A stretch of DNA of 64,000 nt from SAR202 cluster bacterium (GTDB taxonomy: Bacteria; Chloroflexota; Dehalococcoidia; UBA6926; VFHL01). The notes under the pieces are model-generated. The model was not told the origin of the DNA and did not search any database. It saw nothing but the letters and a program-made list of their open reading frames with translations. The translations under genes were made by a program, and so were the position numbers. Positions 14,279-62,974 of this stretch are shown here, in pieces (the first letter of the stretch is position 1; each line of letters starts with the position of its first letter). The stretch covers positions 124,001 through 188,000 of the forward strand of contig VFHL01000002.1 in assembly GCA_009392005.1 (NCBI GenBank). The letters run 5' to 3'.

Positions 14279-14950
14279 TTACTCAGCACTACTACCCGAA
14301 GTGCCAATCCATTCCTCCCCATCTTCCCAAATCTCTTTTTTCCATATGGGAACGCGCGTCTTGATTTGATCAACAATATAACGACATGCTTCAAATGACT
14401 CTTTCCTGTGGCCGCTCGCCACAGCAACAACAATACTTACTTCACCTATCTCGAGTCGGCCGGTCCGATGCGACATTGACACTCCCATAGATCCCCATTT
14501 CTCCTCTGCTTCGATCGCAATACGCTCCATCTCCGCTTCCGCCATAGGAATGTAAGCATCATAAACAAGATATGCGACTGTTCGTCCCAAATTTTGTTGA
14601 CGAACAACGCCTTCAAATGTAGTTACAGCACCATATTCTGGTTTGTGTACTGATTGAGTAATGGCCTTTGTATCAAGGATATCTGGGGTGATATGCGCGC
14701 GCTGCATTCCACCGCTGACAGGCGGGATAAGAGCTAATTCATCGTTTTCTGTCAAAAAGTAGTTCGCATCAACGTACTCAGTATTCACAGCAAATAACGC
14801 GATATCAGCCATTGGACGAAGTGCCGGATATTTCTTCATAAGAATTTGGGCCACTTCAGCCGCCGTCGATCCCTCCTCTACATCCAAAGGAATCTCGTCA
14901 AACCCTGCCTTTTCTCTCAACACTGCAAATAAGCGAATTTTTATACGCAT
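14279..14950 (-). CDS. moaDE: Fused molybdopterin synthase, MoaD-MoaE
   Basis: Residues 1-81 are a MoaD ubiquitin-fold domain ending in LALIPPVSGG. Residues 82-223 are MoaE, with FEGVVRQQN, SHRTGRLEIGE, VVAVASGHR and the lysine pair in IKTRVPIWKKE that lines the MoaE active site. Together they convert precursor Z (cPMP) to molybdopterin using a MoaD C-terminal thiocarboxylate. In the fusion the Gly80-Gly81 tail is followed directly by Met82, so it is not free. Known mycobacterial MoaX fusions are cleaved after Gly-Gly for activity, and the same is inferred here. Molybdopterin is needed by the molybdenum hydroxylase at 21.8-25.5 kb. The MoeB activator is at 61.2 kb. Confidence 0.93.
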   Translation of the reverse strand: MRIKIRLFAVLREKAGFDEIPLDVEEGSTAAEVAQILMKKYPALRPMADIALFAVNTEYVDANYFLTENDELALIPPVSGGMQRAHITPDILDTKAITQSVHKPEYGAVTTFEGVVRQQNLGRTVAYLVYDAYIPMAEAEMERIAIEAEEKWGSMGVSMSHRTGRLEIGEVSIVVAVASGHRKESFEACRYIVDQIKTRVPIWKKEIWEDGEEWIGTSGSSAE

Positions 14951-15216
14951 AACAAGCCCGTCTTTTTATCCATAGGTTACACTAAGGCCAGATAAGTTTG
15001 ACTCATGATTTTTCATTTAGCGCATTTTATGCGCTAACCTTCTCATATCAATTAGGCATGCAAAAATACCAACAATAACTACTCCGCGAAACAAAATCAT
15101 CTCTTGCAAAAGATCGGTCAAAGATCAGATAATCACCAGAGCGTCCTGATTTCTGGACGTTTATAGTTTGCGGAGACTATACTTTATGACAACTTGTGGA
15201 TGAGAAGGAGTCTGCA

Positions 15217-16431
15217 ATGACAACAGAAATGGCTTTAGAAGGCGTTCGTGTACTTGATCTCACGCACCACTATTCTGGTCCGTTTTGCACAAAACTGCTC
15301 GCTGATTATGGTGCTGATGTGATCAAGGTTGAAAAACCAGGGACAGGAGATCCAACTCGATCTATCGGCCCATTCCTTGATGATGACCCTCATCCGGAAA
15401 AAAGTGGCCTTTTTTTTCACTTAAACACAAACAAGCGCAGCATCACCCTAAATTTGAAATCGGAGGGTGGAAAACGAATTTTTAAAGACCTCGTGGCTAC
15501 GGCTGATGTGGTCGTCGAAAGCTTCAGACCACATGTCATGGCTGGCCTCGGGCTCGGCTACGATGAGCTAAAAACAATACGCCCTAATCTGGTCATGACG
15601 TCAATAAGTAGTTTCGGCCAAACTGGCCCATACGCCGAATTCAAGGCAACCGAATTGATCATCTATGGTATGGGCGGTGCAATGTACAACGCCGGAGTTC
15701 CCGATCGAGAACCCGTAAGCTATGGTATTCCCACCGCCGTTTTCCAAGGCGGTGGTGCAGCAGCAGCCGGAACCATGGGAGCATTATACGGGGCAACATT
15801 CAATGATGTCGGGCAACACGTAGATGTTTCAATCATGGAAACGCTTTTGGGAAGCGTAGACCGCCGAATTGCCGCTCTTCTTTCATATGAATATTCAGGA
15901 GAAGTCGGAGGGCGCGAATCAATGGGTGGAGGCTTCGCGACAGGATATTTCCCCTGCCAAGATGGATACTTTGTTATGGCGGGAAGTGGGAACATCATGT
16001 TCCCACGATTAGTCAAAATGATGGGAGACCCAGAGCCACTTCAGGATCCTGCATTTCTAACACCCGCAGGGGCAAGCGACCCCGACTTACGCGATCTTTT
16101 TGAAGCTGTACTGATTGGATGGTCGATGGATCACACTAAACAAGAAATCATTCAACTCGGTGAGGAGAATGGGCTGATTTGTGCAGCAGTCAACGATATG
16201 GAGGGCGTGTTTAACGACCGTCATCTGAATGAACGAGGCGTTTTCACCGACATTGATCATCCCGTCATGGGATCCATACGGTCTCTTGGAAGGCCTTTCG
16301 TCATGGAACAAACACCGTGGAAGCTTCGGCGACCCGCACCCCTCATCGGACAGCACAATGTAGAGATTTTGAAAGATCTTGGTCACACATCAGAAGCAAT
16401 CGTTCAATTCAAGCAAAACGGCGTTATTTAA
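15217..16431 (+). CDS. CaiB/BaiF family CoA transferase, subunit lacking the catalytic Asp (module 1, first gene)
   Basis: A 404-residue type III CoA transferase. The N-terminal Rossmann-like start reads VRVLDLTHHYSGPFCTKLLA, then YGADVIKVEKP, and SSFGQTGPYAEFK marks the CoA pocket. Counting back 25 residues from the conserved GQ of VGQHVDVS, where formyl-CoA transferase has its nucleophile Asp169 and most homologues keep Asp, this protein has Val in the stretch IPTAVFQGGG. It may therefore be a structural or substrate-binding partner of the next gene. The start is ATG 15217 with AAGGAG six bases upstream, in preference to GTG 15196 before that site. The gene is a paralogue of 19191..20405, which has exactly the same length. 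Confidence 0.9.
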   Translation: MTTEMALEGVRVLDLTHHYSGPFCTKLLADYGADVIKVEKPGTGDPTRSIGPFLDDDPHPEKSGLFFHLNTNKRSITLNLKSEGGKRIFKDLVATADVVVESFRPHVMAGLGLGYDELKTIRPNLVMTSISSFGQTGPYAEFKATELIIYGMGGAMYNAGVPDREPVSYGIPTAVFQGGGAAAAGTMGALYGATFNDVGQHVDVSIMETLLGSVDRRIAALLSYEYSGEVGGRESMGGGFATGYFPCQDGYFVMAGSGNIMFPRLVKMMGDPEPLQDPAFLTPAGASDPDLRDLFEAVLIGWSMDHTKQEIIQLGEENGLICAAVNDMEGVFNDRHLNERGVFTDIDHPVMGSIRSLGRPFVMEQTPWKLRRPAPLIGQHNVEILKDLGHTSEAIVQFKQNGVI

Positions 16432-16487
16432 TCGGGGAATCCCATGATCCAATTGATCAAACATACGCATAGAAATGAGGCCGAGAC

Positions 16488-17789
16488 ATGCCAAAGCTAC
16501 CACTAGATGGAATCCGTATTATCGATTTCACTGTTGTTATAGCAGGACCAGCCGCAACAGCAAAGCTAGGGGACATGGGAGCTGAAGTCATCAGAATCGA
16601 ATCTATCCAAGAAATAGGGACAGGTGCGCGAACAACCCGCGCGAAAATAACGAAGGAACAAATGGAAACCTCCCCAATACAAAGGAGAGCCTACCCTGAT
16701 GGTGACCCTGGAGAAAGGCCATGGAACCGTGGTGCTGGTTTCAATGCACATAGCCGCAACAAACTTTGTATGACAGTAGATCTTAAAAAACCAGAGGGCC
16801 TAGAGATTCTAGAAAAGCTGGTCGCACAAAGTGATGTTCTGATTGAAAACCATGCAACAGACTACATGGAACGCAAAGGGATTACATATGATTGGCTAAA
16901 GAAGATCAAACCAGACATTATCATGGTGCGGATGCCCGGTTGGGGGACACATGGTCCATACGCATATTGGAGGACTTTTGGATCGACTGCAGAAGGACAC
17001 ATTGGTCGGTCAGCACTTTCCGGATACCAAGACATGGATTCTTCACACATCCCATGGGTCTTCCCGGCAGATGCAAATGCAGGAACAATAGCTGCATTCG
17101 CCACAACAGCAGCCCTATATCACCGAAAGAAAACCGGTAAAGGTCAAATGATCGACCTCGCGCTCGCGGAGAATATCCTCAACATCCTTGGAGCCCCATT
17201 CCTCGACTACACCATGAACGGGCGCATAACAGAAAATCCAGGCAACCGTCATCCGTCAGCAGCTCCTCACGGAACATATCCGACGAAGGGAGAGGATCGC
17301 TGGATTAATATTACGGTCACAAATGATGCTGAATGGAATGGATTTTGCGAAGCAATTGGAAATCCTACTTGGACGCAAAACGAAAACTATGCATCAACTG
17401 GATCGCGATGGGAAAATCAGGATTCCTTAGACGAACACATCCAATCATGGACGAAAGAGCAAGATCATTTCGATGCAATGCACTTGCTACAAAGCCATGG
17501 AGTACCAGCTGGCCCAGTGATGGACGCAGGAGATGCCGTAAGAGACCCTCACCTTGAAGCAAGAGGATATTTCGAGGCAGTGAACCACTCAGAAATTGGT
17601 GTGCATCGATACCCAGGTATGTTCTTCAAATTCTCAGAAACTCCACTCAAAATACGGCGACCTGCGCCTCGCCTCGGCGAAGACAATGAATACGTTTATA
17701 AAGAATTGCTCAAATACTCTGATGAGGAATACAGCCAATTCGAGCAAGATGGGCACATTGGTATGGACTATGCTCCTCATGTTCCATGA
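16488..17789 (+). CDS. CaiB/BaiF family CoA transferase, catalytic-type subunit (module 1, second gene)
   Basis: A 433-residue type III CoA transferase beginning LDGIRIIDFTVVIAGPAATA. It contains an insert of about 40 residues (~45-85) between the first strand pair and FNAHSRNKLCMTVDLKKPEG that its partner lacks. The predicted nucleophile is Asp195 in WVFPADANAGT, exactly 25 residues before the GQ of TGKGQMIDLA, as in formyl-CoA transferase. The enzyme would exchange CoA between acyl-CoA donor and carboxylate acceptor through a mixed anhydride. The substrate is unknown. It follows the first gene of the module by 56 bases. It is the paralogue of 20409..21701. Confidence 0.9.
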   Translation: MPKLPLDGIRIIDFTVVIAGPAATAKLGDMGAEVIRIESIQEIGTGARTTRAKITKEQMETSPIQRRAYPDGDPGERPWNRGAGFNAHSRNKLCMTVDLKKPEGLEILEKLVAQSDVLIENHATDYMERKGITYDWLKKIKPDIIMVRMPGWGTHGPYAYWRTFGSTAEGHIGRSALSGYQDMDSSHIPWVFPADANAGTIAAFATTAALYHRKKTGKGQMIDLALAENILNILGAPFLDYTMNGRITENPGNRHPSAAPHGTYPTKGEDRWINITVTNDAEWNGFCEAIGNPTWTQNENYASTGSRWENQDSLDEHIQSWTKEQDHFDAMHLLQSHGVPAGPVMDAGDAVRDPHLEARGYFEAVNHSEIGVHRYPGMFFKFSETPLKIRRPAPRLGEDNEYVYKELLKYSDEEYSQFEQDGHIGMDYAPHVP

Positions 17790-19066: not shown

Positions 19067-19190
19067 ATCCAGCGCCATTATTCGTCCCTAGATTAGGCAA
19101 TTCTTAACCAGATTCCTTTTCAGTCTAAGGAACAATATGGCATAATCCAATCGTTCCTGACAATCAATCTCAACTGGTTAGGAGATGCCC

Positions 19191-20405
19191 ATGGCAGATA
19201 TACCACTGACGGGATACCGTGCGCTAGACCTGACAAGTTTATATATGGGACCTTTTTGCACACGAATGCTCGCAGATTATGGTGCCGATGTTATTAAAAT
19301 CGAGCCGGTTTCAGGTGATCCAGCCCGCGACGAAGGACCTTTTTTTCACGATGAGAATCACCCTGAAAAAAGCGGTCTTTTCCTGCACCTCAATGTCAAC
19401 AAACGCTCCATGACCACCAATATCGAAACAGCGCAGGGACAAAACATCATACGTGAACTCGCAAAAAGTAGTGACATCGTTGTCGAAAGTTTCAAGCCTG
19501 GCTATCTCGAAAATCTGGGCCTTGGCTATGAAGATCTTGTGAAAATTAACCCGAAAATCATCGTCACGTCTGTCACAAATTTCGGCCAAACAGGACCTTA
19601 TAAAAACTGGGAAGGCACAGACTTAACCTTATACGCAATGGGTGCTTCAATGAAAACGAGCGGCCAAGAGCATAAATATCCATTGAAAATCGCCGGGCGC
19701 ATCGCGAGCTTCCAAACAGGTAATTTAGCTGCAACGGCAACCGCACTCGCAATTTGGAATCGCGAATTAACTGGTGCACCCGAACATGTGGATGTTTCTT
19801 TCTTTGAAACGTGGAAAGGTGCAATCGATCGTAGCACGAACGATCTCGTAGCGTATTCGTACACCAATGAGAGTTCGAAACGTCAATGGAATCCCGGAAT
19901 GGGTATTGCGAATGGGGTTTTCCGCTGCAAAGATGGCTATTTCCACATCTCCGCCGCAGGAGCCATTCGATTTCCACGATTGATGAAAATGATTGGAAAA
20001 GGAAAAGACCTGATTCACCCACCATGGAACAATCCAAATGCTTTGAATCGACCCGAAACGCTTGAACTGTTTGATAGTTTCTTCATTCCTTGGATGTTGG
20101 AGCATACAAAAACAGATTTGCGAAACATGTGTCAAGAGCAAGGAGTGCTTGGCGCTCCTATCAACACCATTGAAGATCTGTTAAATGATCCACATTACAT
20201 CCAAAGAGGTTATTGGCAAGAGATCGAGCACCCTGAAACAGGGTCTGTCAAATATCCTGGTTTTCCTTTCAAACTCCACGCCACACCCAACCCTGAAAGA
20301 GTCCGTGCTCCGCTGCTCGGAGAACACACAAATGACATCCTGCAAAATGAACTCAAATATTCAAACGATGAGATCCAAGCACTACAAGCGCAAGGAGTCA
20401 TTTAG
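19191..20405 (+). CDS. CaiB/BaiF family CoA transferase, subunit lacking the catalytic Asp (module 2, first gene)
   Basis: A 404-residue paralogue of 15217..16431, sharing YRALDLTSLYMGPFCTRMLA, then YGADVIKIEPV, HPEKSGLFLHLNVNKRSM and NFGQTGPYKNWEGT. At the position of the formyl-CoA transferase nucleophile (25 residues before the GQ equivalent, here PE of GAPEHVDVS) it has Ser in GRIASFQTGN, so it is probably not catalytic on its own. ATG 19191 is preferred: AGGAG sits six bases upstream, whereas ATG 19185 abuts that site directly. Three bases separate its stop from the next gene, so the two are almost certainly co-translated as a pair. Confidence 0.9.
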   Translation: MADIPLTGYRALDLTSLYMGPFCTRMLADYGADVIKIEPVSGDPARDEGPFFHDENHPEKSGLFLHLNVNKRSMTTNIETAQGQNIIRELAKSSDIVVESFKPGYLENLGLGYEDLVKINPKIIVTSVTNFGQTGPYKNWEGTDLTLYAMGASMKTSGQEHKYPLKIAGRIASFQTGNLAATATALAIWNRELTGAPEHVDVSFFETWKGAIDRSTNDLVAYSYTNESSKRQWNPGMGIANGVFRCKDGYFHISAAGAIRFPRLMKMIGKGKDLIHPPWNNPNALNRPETLELFDSFFIPWMLEHTKTDLRNMCQEQGVLGAPINTIEDLLNDPHYIQRGYWQEIEHPETGSVKYPGFPFKLHATPNPERVRAPLLGEHTNDILQNELKYSNDEIQALQAQGVI

Positions 20406-20408
20406 AAA

Positions 20409-21701
20409 ATGAACTCTTTACCGTTGGACGGAATTCGCGTTGTCGCTATAACGAATGCATGGGCTGGCCCATACGCGACACAGCTTTTGGGCGACTGGGG
20501 AGCGGAAGTTATTCGGATTGAGAGTATCTTCCGTTCAACTCGATACGTCGCACGCGCTGATGAATCCACTCTTTCAAGAAACAGATCACAAAGAATTTTT
20601 TCATGGCCGAACATGGAACCTGGTGAACGTCCATTCAACCGATTAGCTCGAACCAACGCTCATATGCGCAACAAATTAGCGATAACACTGGACATGACTA
20701 AACCTGAAGGAATCGAGATCTTTCACAAGCTTATCAAGAAAAGCGATGTATTCATTGAGAACAATGTTCCCATTACCATGGATAAATTTGGGATTTCCTG
20801 GGAAACACTTTCACAGACCAATCCAGCCCTGATCATGCTACGCATGCCCGGATATGGTCTAACTGGACCATATCGGGATTTTCGTGGGCTTGGCAGCCAC
20901 ATGGAAGCAATTGCCGGTCATACACTCATCAGATCGTATCCAGATACTGAACCCGGTCAACAACCAGATGTTTTCCCTGCTGATGCGGCAGGGGGCGCTG
21001 CGGCTGTTTTCGCAACCATCATGGCATTAATGCATCGGAGAAAGACGGGAGAAGGCCAACTTATCGAATTCGCCACCGCAGAAAATTTTATGCCCCTGAT
21101 TGGTGATTTTATTTTGGATTACACTATGAATGATCGCCTATGGGCGCAAATGGGAAACACAGATCGATATATGTCTCCACACAACATTTACCCTTGCGAT
21201 GGAATTGATCGATGGATTGCCATCGCATGTCGAAACGACAAAGATTGGGCGCTCCTATGCAACACAATGCAACGCCAAGATTTAATTCATGACGATCGCT
21301 TTAACGACAGCACAAATCGATATAAAAACCGTGACAAATTAGATACGCTAATCACCGAATGGACAAAAACCAAGGTAGACGAAAAACTGATGCATGAATT
21401 GCAAGCAGTCGGTGTTCCCGCCGGAATGCTGTTCGATGATCAAAATTCGCTGGAAGATCCACATCTAGCATCCCGGGATTTTTTTCAAGAACTCACACAC
21501 GCTGAATCCGGAACCCACTTGTATCCCGGAATCCAGTTCAAAATGCAGAATACACCTAACGAGATTCATCGAGCGCCTGCCATGTTTGGTGAACATAACG
21601 AATATGTTTATAAGGAACTCCTTGGATACGATGACAAAGAATATGCGCGCTTGGAGCGCGAAGGTCATATCGGCAATGATTTTGACCCATCGGTACCCTA
21701 A
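20409..21701 (+). CDS. CaiB/BaiF family CoA transferase, catalytic-type subunit (module 2, second gene)
   Basis: A 430-residue paralogue of 16488..17789, with LDGIRVVAITNAWAGPYATQ, the same ~40-residue insert, and RTNAHMRNKLAITLDMTKPE. The predicted nucleophile Asp192 lies in VFPADAAGGAA, 25 residues before the GQ of TGEGQLIEFA, matching Asp169 of formyl-CoA transferase. MLRMPGYGLTGPYRDFRG marks the CoA-binding loop. The C-terminal segment NEYVYKELLGYDDKEYARLE closely matches the module 1 partner (NEYVYKELLKYSDEEY). The natural acceptor acid is unknown. The molybdenum hydroxylase genes begin 117 bases downstream. Confidence 0.9.
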   Translation: MNSLPLDGIRVVAITNAWAGPYATQLLGDWGAEVIRIESIFRSTRYVARADESTLSRNRSQRIFSWPNMEPGERPFNRLARTNAHMRNKLAITLDMTKPEGIEIFHKLIKKSDVFIENNVPITMDKFGISWETLSQTNPALIMLRMPGYGLTGPYRDFRGLGSHMEAIAGHTLIRSYPDTEPGQQPDVFPADAAGGAAAVFATIMALMHRRKTGEGQLIEFATAENFMPLIGDFILDYTMNDRLWAQMGNTDRYMSPHNIYPCDGIDRWIAIACRNDKDWALLCNTMQRQDLIHDDRFNDSTNRYKNRDKLDTLITEWTKTKVDEKLMHELQAVGVPAGMLFDDQNSLEDPHLASRDFFQELTHAESGTHLYPGIQFKMQNTPNEIHRAPAMFGEHNEYVYKELLGYDDKEYARLEREGHIGNDFDPSVP

Positions 21702-21818: not shown

Positions 21819-22694
21819 ATGAAGCCGTTTGAATATGTAAAACCAAACACGTTGGCAGAGGCAATATCCGCGCTTGACGCTGGAGGGGAAGACGCACGTG
21901 CGCTCAGCGGTGGAACTGATTTGATTGTTCAAATGCGAGCAGGGCGAAATGTTGTTGGAAATGTGATTGACGTTAAAGGAGTGACTGAAACGAACGTAAT
22001 TTCCCATTCCAAGAAAGACGGCCTCACAATTGGATCCTCAGTTCCATGCTACAGAATTTACAACGATGAGGGTATCAAGAAAACGTATGCTGGGCTTGTT
22101 GACTCTGTATCGATTATTGGAGGAACCGGCATCCAGGGTCGCGCCTCATTGGGAGGAAATCTTTGCAACGCCGCCCCGAGTGGAGATGGGATTCAGTCCC
22201 TCATAATACTGGGAGCCGTCGCAAATGTAGAAGGCCCGAATGGAGCACGACAAATAGCAACAGAGGATTTCTGCACTGCACCTGGGCAAAATGCACTAAA
22301 TCCTGGTGAATTGCTTGTATCGCTTAGCGTCCCTGAACCAGAATCTAACGCAGGTGCTCATTACCTTCGATTTATTCCCCGTAACGAAATGGACATCGCG
22401 GTTGTAGGTGTTGGAGCATCCGTTGTCCTAGATGCAGAGAAAAAATCTATTGTATCCGCTCGTATATCACTTGCATCAGTCGCACCAACACCACTCTTCG
22501 TCGAAGCAGCGGGAGATGCACTGAAAGGAACAGAGATCGCATCTGATTCAGTCGAAAAAGCTGCCATTTTTGCACAAGAAGCTGCACGACCAATTGATGA
22601 TATGCGTGGAACGGCTGATTATCGACTTCATCTCGTCGGAGTATTAACTAAAAGAGCACTCAAAGTCGCGATTGAACGCGCAGAAAACCAATAG
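21819..22694 (+). CDS. Molybdenum hydroxylase FAD-binding medium subunit (CoxM/xanthine dehydrogenase type)
   Basis: A 291-residue FAD subunit starting MKPFEYVKPNTLAEAISALD. The two FAD contacts are ALSGGTDLIVQMRAG (~residues 28-42) and IGGTGIQGRASLGGNLCNAAPSGD region (~104-128). The C-terminal domain (residues ~175-285) has the CoxM fold, with DDMRGTADYRLHLVGVLTKRA near the end. It would pass electrons from the 2Fe-2S clusters of the next gene to FAD and then to an acceptor. It is the first of three genes in the order FAD, iron-sulfur, molybdenum subunit. A TATAAT-like sequence lies about 35 bases upstream, without a clear -35 element. Confidence 0.92.
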   Translation: MKPFEYVKPNTLAEAISALDAGGEDARALSGGTDLIVQMRAGRNVVGNVIDVKGVTETNVISHSKKDGLTIGSSVPCYRIYNDEGIKKTYAGLVDSVSIIGGTGIQGRASLGGNLCNAAPSGDGIQSLIILGAVANVEGPNGARQIATEDFCTAPGQNALNPGELLVSLSVPEPESNAGAHYLRFIPRNEMDIAVVGVGASVVLDAEKKSIVSARISLASVAPTPLFVEAAGDALKGTEIASDSVEKAAIFAQEAARPIDDMRGTADYRLHLVGVLTKRALKVAIERAENQ

Positions 22695-22702
22695 GGGCAA
22701 AC

Positions 22703-23182
22703 ATGGCAAAACTACATGTTGAAACAACGATTAACGGCGAATCCACAGAAATTCTGGTCGACCCTCAACAAAGTCTCCTTGAAACTCTTCGTGATGGATT
22801 GATGCTGACAGGCGCAAAAGAGGGCTGTAATGACGGTAATTGTGGAGCGTGCACCGTCATCATGGACGGCAGGACAGTCAACTCATGTTTGGTGCTAGGT
22901 GCCGAAGCTCAAGATGCAGATATCACTACAATCGAAGGACTCGCAACACCGAGAGGATTACACCCACTGCAACAAGCATTCCTTGAAAACGCAGCCTTGC
23001 AGTGTGGGATATGTACACCAGGATTCCTCATATCGTCCAAATCATTGCTTGATAGCAATCCGAACCCAAGTGAAGAAGAAGTCCGATTCTGGCTAGCAGG
23101 GAACCTGTGTCGATGCACGGGATACGACAAAATTGTTCGTGCGGTCCTCGATGCAGCGAAAGAGATGAAAGCAGGGAACTGA
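22703..23182 (+). CDS. Molybdenum hydroxylase 2Fe-2S small subunit (CoxS type)
   Basis: A 159-residue protein with two 2Fe-2S domains. The N-terminal plant-ferredoxin-like cluster uses Cys in GCNDGNCGACTVIMDG and a later NSC. The C-terminal four-helix domain binds the second cluster through QCGICTPGF and NLCRCTGYDKIV. Both sets are complete. The subunit carries electrons from the molybdenum centre to FAD. It starts eight bases after the FAD subunit stop and its TGA shares one base with the ATG of the large subunit, so the three proteins are translated together. Confidence 0.94.
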   Translation: MAKLHVETTINGESTEILVDPQQSLLETLRDGLMLTGAKEGCNDGNCGACTVIMDGRTVNSCLVLGAEAQDADITTIEGLATPRGLHPLQQAFLENAALQCGICTPGFLISSKSLLDSNPNPSEEEVRFWLAGNLCRCTGYDKIVRAVLDAAKEMKAGN

Positions 23183-25461
23183 TGGCGACAACTACGACAG
23201 TCGAACAAAAAACAACAGAGAAAGTCATTGGAACGCGTCCGATCCGCCATGATGGCGTAGATAAAGTGACGGGACGGGCGATATATGGTGCAGACATTAA
23301 TCTGCCAAAAATGTTACACGTCAAAATTCTGCGAAGCCCTCATGCGCATGCCCGGATCGTCTCGATTGACACGAAACAAGCTCTTGATATACCTGGAGTG
23401 AAGGCAGTCATAACAGGGGAAGATTTGCCAGAACCACCGTCACAGATGCAAAATCTTGGCGAGGGTGCTGCCAACCTACGCTTTCTAAGCGATAATGCGA
23501 TGGCACGAACGAAAGCGCTCTATAAAGGACATGCTGTAGCAGCTGTTGCAGCAACTGAGCTATATATTGCTGAAGAAGCACTATCAGCCATTAAGGTTAC
23601 ATGGGAAATTTTGCCAGCGGTTTTGGACACAGAATCTGCAATGGCAGAAGGCGCTCCCCTCGTACACGACGATCTCCCACAAAGACCAATGGAGGGTGAT
23701 CAAGCCCCACCACCGAATGTAGCTCGATACTTCCGGTTCAATATCGGAGATACCCAGCAAGCCTTTGAGGAATCAGACACCGTTGTAGAACGTGAATTCA
23801 GAACCCAAATGGTGCATCAGGGCTATATTGAACCGCAAACCGCGACAGCACTATGGAAAGAAGATGAGAGCCTTACCATTTGGTGTAGCTCTCAGGGCCA
23901 TTTCAATGTTCGAGACCAGACATCAAACATTCTGCAAATACCTGTTTCTTCGATCAAAGTGATACCACTCGAAATTGGTGGTGGGTTCGGAGGAAAGATT
24001 GGATCAACGATTTATCCCGTGATCTCTTTATTGTCGAAAAAGGCTGGGGTACCAGTCAAATATTCAATGACCCGTGCAGAAGTTTTTGAAGGCACCGGAC
24101 CTGGATCTGGCACTCATATGCGAGTGAAAATAGGAGCCATGAAAACAGGCAAGATAACTGCTGTCGATGTGTCATTATCCTATGAGGCCGGAGCATATCC
24201 CGGTTCTTCAGTTGCATCGGGATGCCAAAATATGTTTTCGCCATATGTCATAGAAAACGCGTTTATCGAAGGCTTTGACGTCATTGTGAACAAACCAAAA
24301 ACTGCAGCGTATCGTGCTCCGGGCACACCACAGGCAGCATATGCCGGGGAAAGCATAATTGATGAAGTTGCCGAGAGCATAGGAATGGACCCCATAGATT
24401 TTCGGCTACTAAATGTCGCCGAGGAAGATGACAGTCGAGTTGACGGAACAAAACATCGAGTCATCGGTGCGAAGGAAACTCTGGAAGCGATTAAGAATCA
24501 CCCTCACTACAAATCACCTCTCAACGGACCGAATCAAGGCCGCGGCGTTGCGATCGGTTATTGGGGAAATGCAGGGATGACTTCAAGCTGTTCATTAATC
24601 GTTAATGGAGATGGAACTGTAAACCTTGTTGAAGGATCCGTCGATATCGGTGGGACACGGACAGCAATTGCAATGCACGCCGCAGAGGTCCTTGGCATCC
24701 CGGCAGAAGACATTCATCCTGTCGTAGCTGATACTGAATCAGTTGGAATGACCAGCATCACTGCTGGTAGTCGGACTGCATTCGCATCTGGTTGGGCAGC
24801 GTATGAGGCAGCCCAGGGCGTATTGAAAGAATTGATCGAACGTGCGGCAACTGTCTTTGAAACTACGCCTGACCAAGTTGTGCATGAAGATGGAACCTTT
24901 CGCAGCGTATCCGACAACGATAAAAAATTAACGTTCAAAGAACTTGCAGGGAGACTCCAACGTGTTGGTGGCCCTGTAATTGGGCAAGCAACTATCACAC
25001 CGCGTGGTGTCGGAACCGCTTTCGGAGCTGATATCGTCGATGTTGAGGTCGATCCTGAGACCGGAAAGGTTCAGGTCCTTCGAGTCACCGCAGCGCAAGA
25101 TGTAGGCCGAGCGATTCATCCAAGTTATGTTGAAGGGCAAATTCAAGGTGGTGTCGCCCAAGGTATTGGTTGGGCTCTGAACGAAGAATATGTGTTTAAT
25201 GACGAAGGTGTGATGCAGAATCCCGGTTTTCTTGACTATAGGATGCCCACCTCACTCGATTTGCCCATGATCGAAGCTGTTCTTGTTGAAAAACGAAATC
25301 CAGGTCATCCCTATGGTGCTCGCGGTGTTGGTGAAGTCCCAATTGTCCCCGTAATGGCATCTGTCGCGAACGCAGTGTATCGAGCTACCGGCGTCCGCTA
25401 CCAAGCACTCCCGATGTCACCAGGAAATATAATTGCAGGCCTGACCCAAAAAGATCACTAA
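23182..25461 (+). CDS. Molybdenum hydroxylase catalytic large subunit (xanthine dehydrogenase/aldehyde oxidase family)
   Basis: A 759-residue molybdopterin-binding subunit. IRHDGVDKVTGRAIYGADI opens the alpha/beta-hammerhead domain. Cofactor loops include GGGFGGKIG, the active-site segment KTAAYRAPGTPQ, and the C-terminal GARGVGEVPIVP, whose Glu is the catalytic base of the family. CO dehydrogenase would have AYxCSFR at the active-site loop, so this is not a CO dehydrogenase. It probably hydroxylates an aldehyde, N-heterocycle or aromatic acyl-CoA. The start is ATG 23182, overlapping the upstream TGA by one base with AGGG before it. The frame is open further upstream but only inside the small-subunit gene. 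Confidence 0.93.
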   Translation: MATTTTVEQKTTEKVIGTRPIRHDGVDKVTGRAIYGADINLPKMLHVKILRSPHAHARIVSIDTKQALDIPGVKAVITGEDLPEPPSQMQNLGEGAANLRFLSDNAMARTKALYKGHAVAAVAATELYIAEEALSAIKVTWEILPAVLDTESAMAEGAPLVHDDLPQRPMEGDQAPPPNVARYFRFNIGDTQQAFEESDTVVEREFRTQMVHQGYIEPQTATALWKEDESLTIWCSSQGHFNVRDQTSNILQIPVSSIKVIPLEIGGGFGGKIGSTIYPVISLLSKKAGVPVKYSMTRAEVFEGTGPGSGTHMRVKIGAMKTGKITAVDVSLSYEAGAYPGSSVASGCQNMFSPYVIENAFIEGFDVIVNKPKTAAYRAPGTPQAAYAGESIIDEVAESIGMDPIDFRLLNVAEEDDSRVDGTKHRVIGAKETLEAIKNHPHYKSPLNGPNQGRGVAIGYWGNAGMTSSCSLIVNGDGTVNLVEGSVDIGGTRTAIAMHAAEVLGIPAEDIHPVVADTESVGMTSITAGSRTAFASGWAAYEAAQGVLKELIERAATVFETTPDQVVHEDGTFRSVSDNDKKLTFKELAGRLQRVGGPVIGQATITPRGVGTAFGADIVDVEVDPETGKVQVLRVTAAQDVGRAIHPSYVEGQIQGGVAQGIGWALNEEYVFNDEGVMQNPGFLDYRMPTSLDLPMIEAVLVEKRNPGHPYGARGVGEVPIVPVMASVANAVYRATGVRYQALPMSPGNIIAGLTQKDH

Positions 25462-25533: not shown

Positions 25534-25839
25534 ATGGCCACTGTATATATACCAACCCTTTTACGCCATTTAACAGATGGGATCGACCAGATCCAAATCT
25601 CTGGGCAAAATATCGGACAAGTGATTGATGGGTTAGATTCCAGATACCCTGGTTTCAAAAAAAGACTGATCGATGGGGATGAAATTCATGCAGAAATCGC
25701 TGTCATCATAGACCAAGAAGTTGTCGACAGAGATCTTCTCGAAGTTGTGCATCAAGATTCCGACGTTCATTTTGTTCCATCAGTCAGTGGTGGTAGTGCC
25801 AAGAATCAAGAAAGTTTTCGTGTAAATCCCTTGACTTAG
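25534..25839 (+). CDS. MoaD/ThiS/CysO-like ubiquitin-fold sulfur-carrier candidate with tail after Gly-Gly
   Basis: A 101-residue protein whose first 87 residues match the MoaD/ThiS beta-grasp fold: TVYIPTLLRHLTDG, then GQVIDGLDSRYPGFKKRL, EIAVIIDQEVV, and the terminal strand DVHFVPSVSGG. In working carriers Gly-Gly is the C-terminus, where adenylation and thiocarboxylation occur. Here Gly86-Gly87 is followed by 14 more residues (SAKNQESFRVNPLT), so activation would require proteolysis. Precursors of this sort are known (QbsE, trimmed by a JAMM protease). It follows the molybdenum hydroxylase by 72 bases with a GGAG site. Candidate roles are molybdopterin synthesis for that enzyme or sulfur delivery to CysM. 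Confidence 0.85.
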   Translation: MATVYIPTLLRHLTDGIDQIQISGQNIGQVIDGLDSRYPGFKKRLIDGDEIHAEIAVIIDQEVVDRDLLEVVHQDSDVHFVPSVSGGSAKNQESFRVNPLT

Positions 25840-25895: not shown

Positions 25896-25972
25896 GGCCC
25901 CGTGGTGTAGCGGTTTAACATATTGCCCTGTCACGGCAAAGATCGCCGGTTCAAATCCGGTCGGGGTCGCCA
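25896..25972 (+). tRNA. tRNA-Asp (anticodon GTC)
   Basis: A complete cloverleaf. Acceptor GGCCCCG (25896-25902) pairs with CGGGGTC (25962-25968) with one G-U. A D arm GTGT/ACAT, anticodon stem TTGCC/GGCAA with loop CTGTCAC and anticodon GTC at 25930-25932, and T arm GCCGG/CCGGT with loop TTCAAAT follow. The discriminator is G25969 and CCA is encoded at 25970-25972. Confidence 0.97.
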
Positions 25973-61180: not shown

Positions 61181-62008
61181 ATGGTTGCTGAAATAAAGGC
61201 CTTTACGCCAGAACAAGTGCAACGCTACAGCCGACACATCATTATGGGACAAATCGGCGGAATAGGGCAACGTAAACTTCTAGATGCAAGCGTATTACTT
61301 ATTGGCGCAGGCGGATTAGGATCACCAACCGCTCTATACCTAGCAGCCGCTGGTGTTGGCACAATTGGAATCGTTGACTACGACGTTGTCGATATGACAA
61401 ACCTACAACGCCAGATTCTGCACCGCAACGCAGATGTGGGCAGGCTGAAGGTAGATTCGGCACGAGACACTATCAATGGGATCAACCCCGATATTAATGT
61501 CGTACAACATCCAGTCGCTCTTTCATCCGAGAATGTCATGGATATTATCAAAGATTACGACGTAATCGTTGACGGTAGTGATAATTTTCCTACAAGGTAT
61601 CTGGTAAACGATGCGACTTATTTTGCAGGCAAACCGAATGTCCACGGCAGTATTTTTCTTTTTGAGGGACAAGCGAGCACGTTTGTTCCAGGCAACGGTT
61701 GTTATCGATGCCTTTACCCAGCGCCTCCCCCACCAGGAATGGTCCCAAGTTGCTCAGAGGCAGGTGTGCTAGGAGTTCTGCCAGGTATTATTGGATCGAT
61801 CCAAGCAGTGGAAACTATCAAAATTATTCTGGACCTTGGCGACACATTGACACAAAGGCTTCTCATGTTTGATGCTGAAAGAATGGACTTCCGCACAGTC
61901 AAGTTACGACGTGATCCCGAATGCCCACTTTGTGGTGACAATCCGACAGTTTCAACATTGATTGACTATGAAGTTTTTTGTGGAGTAACCGTTGAGGCTG
62001 GTGGTTAA
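61181..62008 (+). CDS. moeB: MoeB/ThiF/HesA-family E1-like adenylyltransferase
   Basis: A 275-residue ubiquitin-activating-like enzyme. RYSRHIIMGQIGGIGQRKLL has the Arg finger, LIGAGGLGSPTALYLAAAGV the nucleotide loop, VDMTNLQRQILH the adenylate-binding loop, and DGSDNFPTRYLVNDA the active-site Asp. Zinc ligands are CYRCLYP and CPLCG. It adenylates the C-terminal Gly-Gly of MoaD/ThiS/CysO-like carriers. No rhodanese domain follows, so a separate sulfur donor is needed. The chain itself ends EAGG. It is 27 bases upstream of cysM, a pairing that suggests carrier-protein-dependent cysteine synthesis. Confidence 0.92.
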   Translation: MVAEIKAFTPEQVQRYSRHIIMGQIGGIGQRKLLDASVLLIGAGGLGSPTALYLAAAGVGTIGIVDYDVVDMTNLQRQILHRNADVGRLKVDSARDTINGINPDINVVQHPVALSSENVMDIIKDYDVIVDGSDNFPTRYLVNDATYFAGKPNVHGSIFLFEGQASTFVPGNGCYRCLYPAPPPPGMVPSCSEAGVLGVLPGIIGSIQAVETIKIILDLGDTLTQRLLMFDAERMDFRTVKLRRDPECPLCGDNPTVSTLIDYEVFCGVTVEAGG

Positions 62009-62035: not shown

Positions 62036-62974
62036 ATGCGACATGCATCCCTAGTGGAAGCCATCGGGCACACACCCCTGGTGGAACTTAACCACATGAG
62101 TCCCAACCCAGATGTGCGTATCTTTGCCAAACTTGAAGGTCAAAATCCTACAGGGAGTGTTAAAGATCGCATAGCGCGTCATATGATCGAACAAGCAGAA
62201 AAGTCCGGTCATTTGACTAGTGCACACACGATTTTGGAGCCAACAAGTGGCAATACAGGCATTTCTCTTGCCATGGTCGGTCGAATCAAAGGATACAAGG
62301 TAAAAGTCGTTTTGCCTGACAATGTGACCGAAGAACGACGATCTCTACTAGAAGCCTATGGTGCAGAAATCATATTTAGTGATGGACGCGGCGGTACAAA
62401 CGGAGCAATCGAACTTGCGCAGGACATTGTCACCAAGGGTGAGGAGAATTACTTCATGCCCTACCAGTACGGCAACGAATCAAATCCAGACGCGCATTAT
62501 GAAACTACTGGCGCAGAAATCATCAAAGATCTTCCAGAAGTTGACACCTTTATTGCGGGGCTAGGAACCGGTGGTACTCTCATGGGTGTTGGGAAGAGAT
62601 TGAAAGAACAAAATCCTGATACCCGCATTATAGCAATTGCGCCACACCCAGAAGAAATCATCCAGGGCCTCCGAAGTCTAGAAGATGGATTCGTTCCTCC
62701 TATTCTTGACTTGAATCTTTTGTCCGGTCGACAAATGGTACGGAGCCGTGAATCCTTTTACGCAACGAAAGATCTAATGGAAAAAGAAGGTATCTTTGCT
62801 GGAATTTCTTCAGGTGCAGTTGTGAGTGGGGCTATCAAAGTTGCAGAAAACATGGATCATGGAAATATTGTGGCCCTTTTAGCAGATGGAGGATGGAAAT
62901 ACCTATCAACAAAACTCTGGACTGAAGACATCGAAGCGATCACTACTCAGATTGGCACAAAGATTTGGTGGTGA
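62036..62974 (+). CDS. cysM: Cysteine synthase CysM, CysO-dependent type candidate
   Basis: A 312-residue PLP enzyme. VEAIGHTPLVELNHMSPNPD begins the fold, the Schiff-base Lys is in GQNPTGSVKDRIARHMIEQA, and the phosphate loop GTGGTLMGVG and EPTSGNTGISLAM are clear. QGLRSLEDGFVP is very close to the mycobacterial CysM segment around Arg220, and the C-terminus ends in IWW like the mycobacterial C-terminal closing tail. Mycobacterial CysM uses O-phosphoserine and a CysO thiocarboxylate, and the same is inferred here. It is paired with moeB. Confidence 0.92.
   Translation: MRHASLVEAIGHTPLVELNHMSPNPDVRIFAKLEGQNPTGSVKDRIARHMIEQAEKSGHLTSAHTILEPTSGNTGISLAMVGRIKGYKVKVVLPDNVTEERRSLLEAYGAEIIFSDGRGGTNGAIELAQDIVTKGEENYFMPYQYGNESNPDAHYETTGAEIIKDLPEVDTFIAGLGTGGTLMGVGKRLKEQNPDTRIIAIAPHPEEIIQGLRSLEDGFVPPILDLNLLSGRQMVRSRESFYATKDLMEKEGIFAGISSGAVVSGAIKVAENMDHGNIVALLADGGWKYLSTKLWTEDIEAITTQIGTKIWW

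Follow-up and report, generated by a model that had tools for sequence, protein, structure and literature searches.

The window, a stretch of 64,000 nucleotides from a SAR202 cluster bacterium, contains a three-subunit molybdenum hydroxylase (21819-25461) and, immediately downstream, a short gene for a sulfur carrier of the ThiS/MoaD family. The carrier gene starts 72 bases past the stop of the large hydroxylase subunit, and a tRNA-Asp gene comes next (Table 1). Upstream of the hydroxylase, two tandem CaiB-type CoA-transferase-like gene pairs, named by eye from their translations, flank a tsaD-like gene.

Table 1. Position and identification of the carrier gene, its parts and associated genes in the window
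Feature	Position	Strand	Basis or remark
MoaD-MoaE fusion (MoaX-like), internal Gly-Gly	14279..14950	-	PF02597 + PF02391; PPVSGG followed by MQRAHITPD
CaiB-type CoA-transferase-like gene pair	15196-17789	+	named by eye
CaiB-type CoA-transferase-like gene pair	19185-21701	+	named by eye
Molybdenum hydroxylase FAD subunit	21819..22694	+	PF00941, PF03450
Molybdenum hydroxylase 2Fe-2S subunit	22703..23182	+	PF01799, PF00111
Molybdenum hydroxylase large (Moco) subunit	23182..25461	+	PF02738, PF20256, PF01315
ThiS/MoaD-family sulfur carrier ORF	25534-25839	+	ATG start, 101 aa
Beta-grasp sulfur-carrier domain (CysO/MoaD type), residues 1-87	25534..25794	+	PF02597, PDB sequence matches, AlphaFold, Foldseek
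Gly86-Gly87, predicted cleavage and thiocarboxylation site	25789..25794	+	invariant in 77/77 class homologues
C-terminal tail SAKNQESFRVNPLT, 14 residues, predicted coil, unconserved	codons 25795..25836	+	translation, model, class comparison
tRNA-Asp	25896-25972		next after the carrier gene
MoeB/ThiF-type adenylating enzyme (E1-like), candidate activator	61181..62008	+	PF00899
CysM-like PLP enzyme beside MoeB	62036..62974	+	PF00291; homologue in the JAMM/carrier operon of the class (L215)

Translation of the carrier ORF gives the C-terminus SDVHFVPSVSGG, followed by the tail SAKNQESFRVNPLT and the stop; the last strand, DVHFVPSVSGG, directly precedes the tail. The Pfam ThiS model (PF02597) matches residues 10-87 with 28.4 bits against a cut-off of 22.5, and the match stops exactly at Gly87. 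The MoaD equivalog model TIGR01682 scores 14.3 bits, below its cut-off of 66.15, and the carrier is not an equivalog-level MoaD. Its first PDB sequence matches are the CysO proteins of Amycolatopsis (4n6e, E 9.8e-10) and M. tuberculosis (3dwg, E 1.3e-7), with the MoaD-related Thermus protein 1v8c, in which Gly-Gly is internal, in third place. An AlphaFold model built from 46 relatives has an overall pLDDT of 88; by blocks of ten residues, the values are 91-97 to about the Gly-Gly and 57-67 in the tail, which is predicted to be a low-confidence coil. A Foldseek search with this model ranked CysO first (TM about 0.78 by query) and also matched SAMP1, MoaD and Urm1, as would be expected for a ubiquitin-like beta-grasp fold. 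These results confirm the sequence-only reading of a ubiquitin-fold carrier in which Gly-Gly is followed by a 14-residue tail, and they indicate that the carrier is closest to CysO, both by sequence and by predicted fold.

As encoded, the carrier does not end at Gly-Gly: 14 more codons follow, and it would have such an end only if processed. A C-terminal Gly-Gly as encoded is not strictly defining for ThiS/MoaD carriers, since the MoaD-MoaE fusions in the family also lack it. Nor is a 14-codon tail improbable in itself, because ordinary read-through past a lost stop would yield such a length. A search for promoter and terminator signals within the tail returned one promoter-like match, at chance level. 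Two Anaerolineae carriers (L013:5001 and L014:5001 onward) continue past Gly-Gly through a linker into a rhodanese-like domain. We considered whether the tail might be the leftover of such a fusion, as the ...RPLTREQ of these proteins resembles RVNPLT, and rejected the idea: the match covers 2-3 residues, and no rhodanese sequence comes after the tail.

We then compared carriers across the class. Matches at an E value of 1e-10 or better were present in 178 of 393 genomes; 80 loci were taken with their flanks and, together with the window gene and a hydroxylase-linked paralogue, yielded 77 carriers that adjoin genes of the same hydroxylase type. This sample was picked by similarity to the query, most of the genomes look metagenome-assembled, and the comparison is one at class level, with relatives from outside the genus and family of the window genome. 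In 66 of the 77 relatives, the gene directly upstream of the carrier encodes a homologous large subunit. We found that Gly-Gly is present in all 77 carriers and that, apart from it, only Pro39 is invariant; the PxxxGG pattern of the C-terminal strand is likewise retained. Past the Gly run, 39 of the 77 stop and 38 continue for 1-19 residues of unrelated sequence, with an excess of tails of 1-2 residues. Conservation of the tail in orthologues, which the sequence-only reading had suggested checking, was thus not found. Orthologues lacking Gly-Gly, which would have counted against that reading, were absent from the sample; orthologues lacking the tail were common, and these speak against any tail-specific role.

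The tails differ even between carriers whose bodies are nearly the same. Bodies that are 97% identical carry the tail VNKQNRSHRRMKP or none (L124/L135), a pair at 95% identity has AGSR in one member and the 19-mer ACVVIPKPVERRLRRSGAH in the other (L115/L117), and a pair at 92% has SGVIDNSRN or none (L100/L122). The dN/dS of the bodies in the compared pairs was 0.03-0.23 where dS was computable; because these values indicate strong purifying selection, the tailed relatives are not pseudogenes. On a tree built from only 87 columns, the tail state changed about 25 times, with at least 12 changes forced by well-supported branches, and tail presence was no more clustered than shuffled labels. The tails are also short, with a median length of 2, versus medians of 17-59 codons for read-through in relatives that lack a tail (p = 6e-13). 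We therefore rejected the idea that the tails arise purely from free drift, as they are much shorter than read-through would make them. A general origin by frameshift was rejected as well: for each shift, 1 of the 38 tailed genes has an out-of-frame stop immediately past Gly-Gly.

Together, these comparisons suggest that the carrier can do without the tail but not without the Gly-Gly before it, which fits trimming of the protein after Gly87. Because the tail can be anything and Gly-Gly is never lost, the best explanation would be that the tail is removed and the glycine carboxylate put to use, and we consider trimming of the carrier likely on these sequence grounds. The invariant Gly-Gly and the coming and going of tails among the relatives suggest that a bacterial enzyme routinely carries out this step. 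Long tails are tolerated, not favored; they are probably mildly harmful, since tails are much shorter than drift would give, and such harm suggests that some relatives may trim incompletely or not at all.

The genome, which its gene content and the nearest named records (Anaerolineae and Chloroflexi) place probably in Chloroflexota, encodes several proteins that bear on such a step. Four ThiS domains score over the cut-off: the window carrier, two paralogues and the MoaD-MoaE fusion, which also accounts for the single MoaE match that the genome gave and is expected to be a second protein that needs a cut after Gly-Gly. One paralogue, 43% identical to the window carrier, lies beside a second hydroxylase and has no residue past Gly-Gly; the other, near threonine synthase, likewise has Gly-Gly as its C-terminal end. 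XdhC is encoded as well. The sequence-only reading had noted that no JAMM protease lies in the window, which agrees with our reading of it; a search of the genome finds a single Prok-JAB/JAMM protein, on contig C5 and near no carrier (PF14464, 57.5 bits against 25). Its motif, E-x(n)-HxH-x7-S-x2-D, is intact (LECCG ... HSHPNGQAYFSDTD) and reads E...HSHP-x6-S-DTD. This JAMM gene is on a different contig from the window carrier and hence unlinked to it; the cysM-like gene is in the window, 36 kb off.

Across the class, strong Prok-JAB matches occur in 166 of 178 carrier-bearing genomes versus 65 of 215 others, in raw counts that ignore relatedness. Of the 100 class genomes that gave a MoaE match, 37 encode fused MoaD-MoaE, and JAMM is present in all 37 of these versus 54 of the 63 without the fusion (p = 0.02, again from raw counts that ignore relatedness). 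One operon of the class (L215:474-6733, minus strand) combines a MoaD-ThiF fusion, in which Gly-Gly is internal and the carrier is joined to its own E1-like enzyme, with a second carrier, CysM, a rhodanese and JAMM. JAMM-adjacent carriers of the class often have tails of 1-5 residues, and the five carriers that we read from four genomes with no strong Prok-JAB match (G024, G117, G138, G089) are all tail-less, also by raw count. The ThrC-linked carriers show the same preference for short tails: of 29 that were readable, 16 stop at Gly-Gly, and the other 13 go on for 1-2 residues at most. The carriers at L196, L197, L199 and L200, from class genomes without a strong Prok-JAB match, have Gly-Ala or Ala-Gly in place of the terminal Gly-Gly and are perhaps degenerate or otherwise functioning. 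From their sequences and occurrence, we consider the assignment of JAMM as the trimming protease plausible.

On balance, we favor the view that the carrier is a CysO/MoaD-type pro-protein that is cut after Gly87 and serves the upstream hydroxylase, with the C5 JAMM or the enzyme that cleaves the MoaD-MoaE fusion as its most likely protease. The ribosome would make residues 1-101, and the protease, most likely C5 JAMM or whatever cuts the fusion, would cut after Gly87, so that the 14-residue tail is discarded and its sequence is irrelevant. The exposed Gly87 would then be adenylated by the MoeB-like enzyme and converted to a thiocarboxylate. Its sulfur could then serve the hydroxylase's molybdenum cofactor, entering the pterin dithiolene by way of MoaE or else becoming the terminal sulfido ligand. 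The placement of the carrier gene after the large subunit, which is conserved in the class, argues for a role in the cofactor of this hydroxylase, by analogy with the MoaD genes at aldehyde ferredoxin oxidoreductase (PMC1779556). Of the two roles for a specialized carrier that the sequence-only reading suggested, the one at the molybdenum hydroxylase agrees with an association that holds across the class. The link to CysM is weak for the window carrier, since the CysM and JAMM of relatives go with another carrier paralogue, and CysM is less likely as its sulfur acceptor. Against our favored explanation, the JAMM gene is not near the window carrier and, in relatives, goes with that other carrier and CysM, where the known job of its counterpart Mec+ is to release cysteine from CysO.

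It is also conceivable, though we consider it rather unlikely, that the carrier is trimmed by something other than JAMM: a general protease, a carboxypeptidase or the MoaX-cleaving enzyme might remove unstructured residues down to the rigid Gly-Gly, which would suit the predicted coil of the tail. In M. tuberculosis MoaX, whose Gly81-Gly82 is internal, a cut between Gly82 and Ser83 is needed for activity, and the identity of the protease is open (PMC4326299). Two genomes have tailed carriers and no detectable Prok-JAB protease. G346 (94% complete) has a tail of 13-14 residues (GSSVCSCVLTMSPD, with Gly as the first residue), and its only JAB match, considered as a carrier protease, was set aside as RadC-like on inspection; in G003 (86% complete), which has no JAB match, a related carrier bears a tail of one residue. 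Since G346 has a tailed carrier and only RadC, JAMM is argued against as indispensable for tailed carriers. However, several of these genomes are incomplete, JAMM is present in every genome with a MoaD-MoaE fusion, and tails of 1-5 residues are frequent in JAMM-adjacent carriers but missing from the five carriers in genomes without a strong Prok-JAB match.

We think it improbable that no cleavage occurs and that the full-length carrier works as it is, its Gly-Gly having some other task such as docking at the molybdenum hydroxylase or at an assembly factor. In favor of this, selection maintains tailed and tail-less forms alike. Yet MoaD, ThiS and CysO are established to use the free carboxylate of a C-terminal glycine, as MoaX mutants also bear out (PMC4326299); two invariant glycines beside tails of any sequence are what carboxyl chemistry after trimming would predict, and the C-terminal strand keeps the PxxxGG pattern of a carrier.

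We assign a slightly smaller chance to a single-base indel, whether genuine or introduced by the assembly, as the source of the tail in the window, in which case the true protein would end at Gly-Gly. A TAG lies in the -1 frame directly past Gly-Gly, such that loss of one base turns GGT GGT AGT into GGT GGN TAG; GGTGGTAG is a candidate site, relative L024 has GGTGGTTAG, and the window comes from an assembly of 13 contigs. However, chance would put a shifted-frame stop at this place about as often as was observed (1 in 38 tailed genes per shift), and tails are common in relatives, including the single-contig genome G297, whose carrier ends in TGTL. The family pattern is, moreover, independent of a possible indel in the window. 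Finally, we consider it very improbable that the tail controls sulfur delivery as a degron or a specific regulatory element: nothing more than its presence speaks for it, whereas the tails share no sequence or length, near-identical bodies lack them, and the paralogue at the second hydroxylase ends exactly at Gly-Gly. The sequence-only idea of regulated sulfur delivery is thus unsupported, and so is any view of the tail as conserved, since orthologues have unrelated tails or none; its idea of proteolytic exposure of Gly-Gly gains from the invariant Gly-Gly, the freely varying tails and the intact JAMM in the genome.

That JAB proteins free fused ThiS/MoaD domains was proposed by Iyer et al. 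2006 (PMC1779556). The idea of release by JAB is therefore not new; the additions here are its scale, the family linked to hydroxylases and a stop codon that drifts. A search of the literature for MoaD in SAR202 or Dehalococcoidia gave no match. We tentatively propose, as an idea that could well be wrong, that the class has a general Gly-Gly maturation akin to the processing of ubiquitin precursors, in which one protease, probably JAMM, acts on several carriers (the tailed hydroxylase-linked carriers, the MoaD-MoaE and MoaD-ThiF fusions and the ThrC-linked carriers with 1-2 extra residues) and so frees the stop codon to drift behind an invariant Gly-Gly. If so, proteolytic carrier maturation would be routine across a bacterial class and not a rarity of a few siderophore and methionine pathways, it would extend to molybdenum enzymes, and the annotated C-termini of these carriers would be predicted not to be the functional ones. 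Identical bodies with different tails also offer a natural substrate series for finding a Gly-Gly-cutting protease such as the one that cleaves M. tuberculosis MoaX.

Several known systems resemble the window carrier in part. Like the eukaryotic precursors of ubiquitin, SUMO and NEDD8, it is a Gly-Gly carrier with a disposable C-terminal tail that would need removal; its relation to them is at the fold level only, and the likeness concerns the tail, not conjugation. QbsE and HcyS carriers have 1-2 residues past Gly-Gly that are removed by a dedicated JAMM enzyme. The window carrier likewise has residues past Gly-Gly, with a JAMM protein in the same genome, and extensions of exactly 1-2 residues are seen in many of the class relatives, but its tail is long and variable and it has no linked JAMM gene. 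When Thermus loses a JAMM homologue, its TtuB conjugates are altered and its thiouridine falls (PMC3980101). Thermus 1v8c shares a MoaD-like domain with Gly-Gly inside a longer chain, although its extension is about 80 residues, in contrast to the short tail here. In MoaX and other MoaD-MoaE fusions, too, the chain continues past the Gly-Gly of a MoaD-type domain, but there the extension is a functional enzyme subunit, whereas that of the window carrier is a short, unconserved tail. MoaD-like genes strictly adjoin aldehyde ferredoxin oxidoreductase (Iyer et al. 2006, PMC1779556), and the window carrier gene similarly adjoins the molybdenum/tungsten enzyme it presumably serves; here, however, the enzyme is a xanthine-dehydrogenase-type hydroxylase and the carriers have variable tails. 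CysO is the best match in both sequence and structure (3dwg/3dwm from M. tuberculosis, 4n6e from Amycolatopsis). In M. tuberculosis, Mec+ frees cysteine from CysO (PMC3227635). CysO ends at Gly-Gly, while the window carrier runs on for 14 residues and adjoins a molybdenum hydroxylase, not cysM and a Mec+ (JAMM) gene; nevertheless, the two share an ATVYIPTLLR-like start and a PxxxGG end, and MoeB, CysM and JAMM are all encoded in the window genome.
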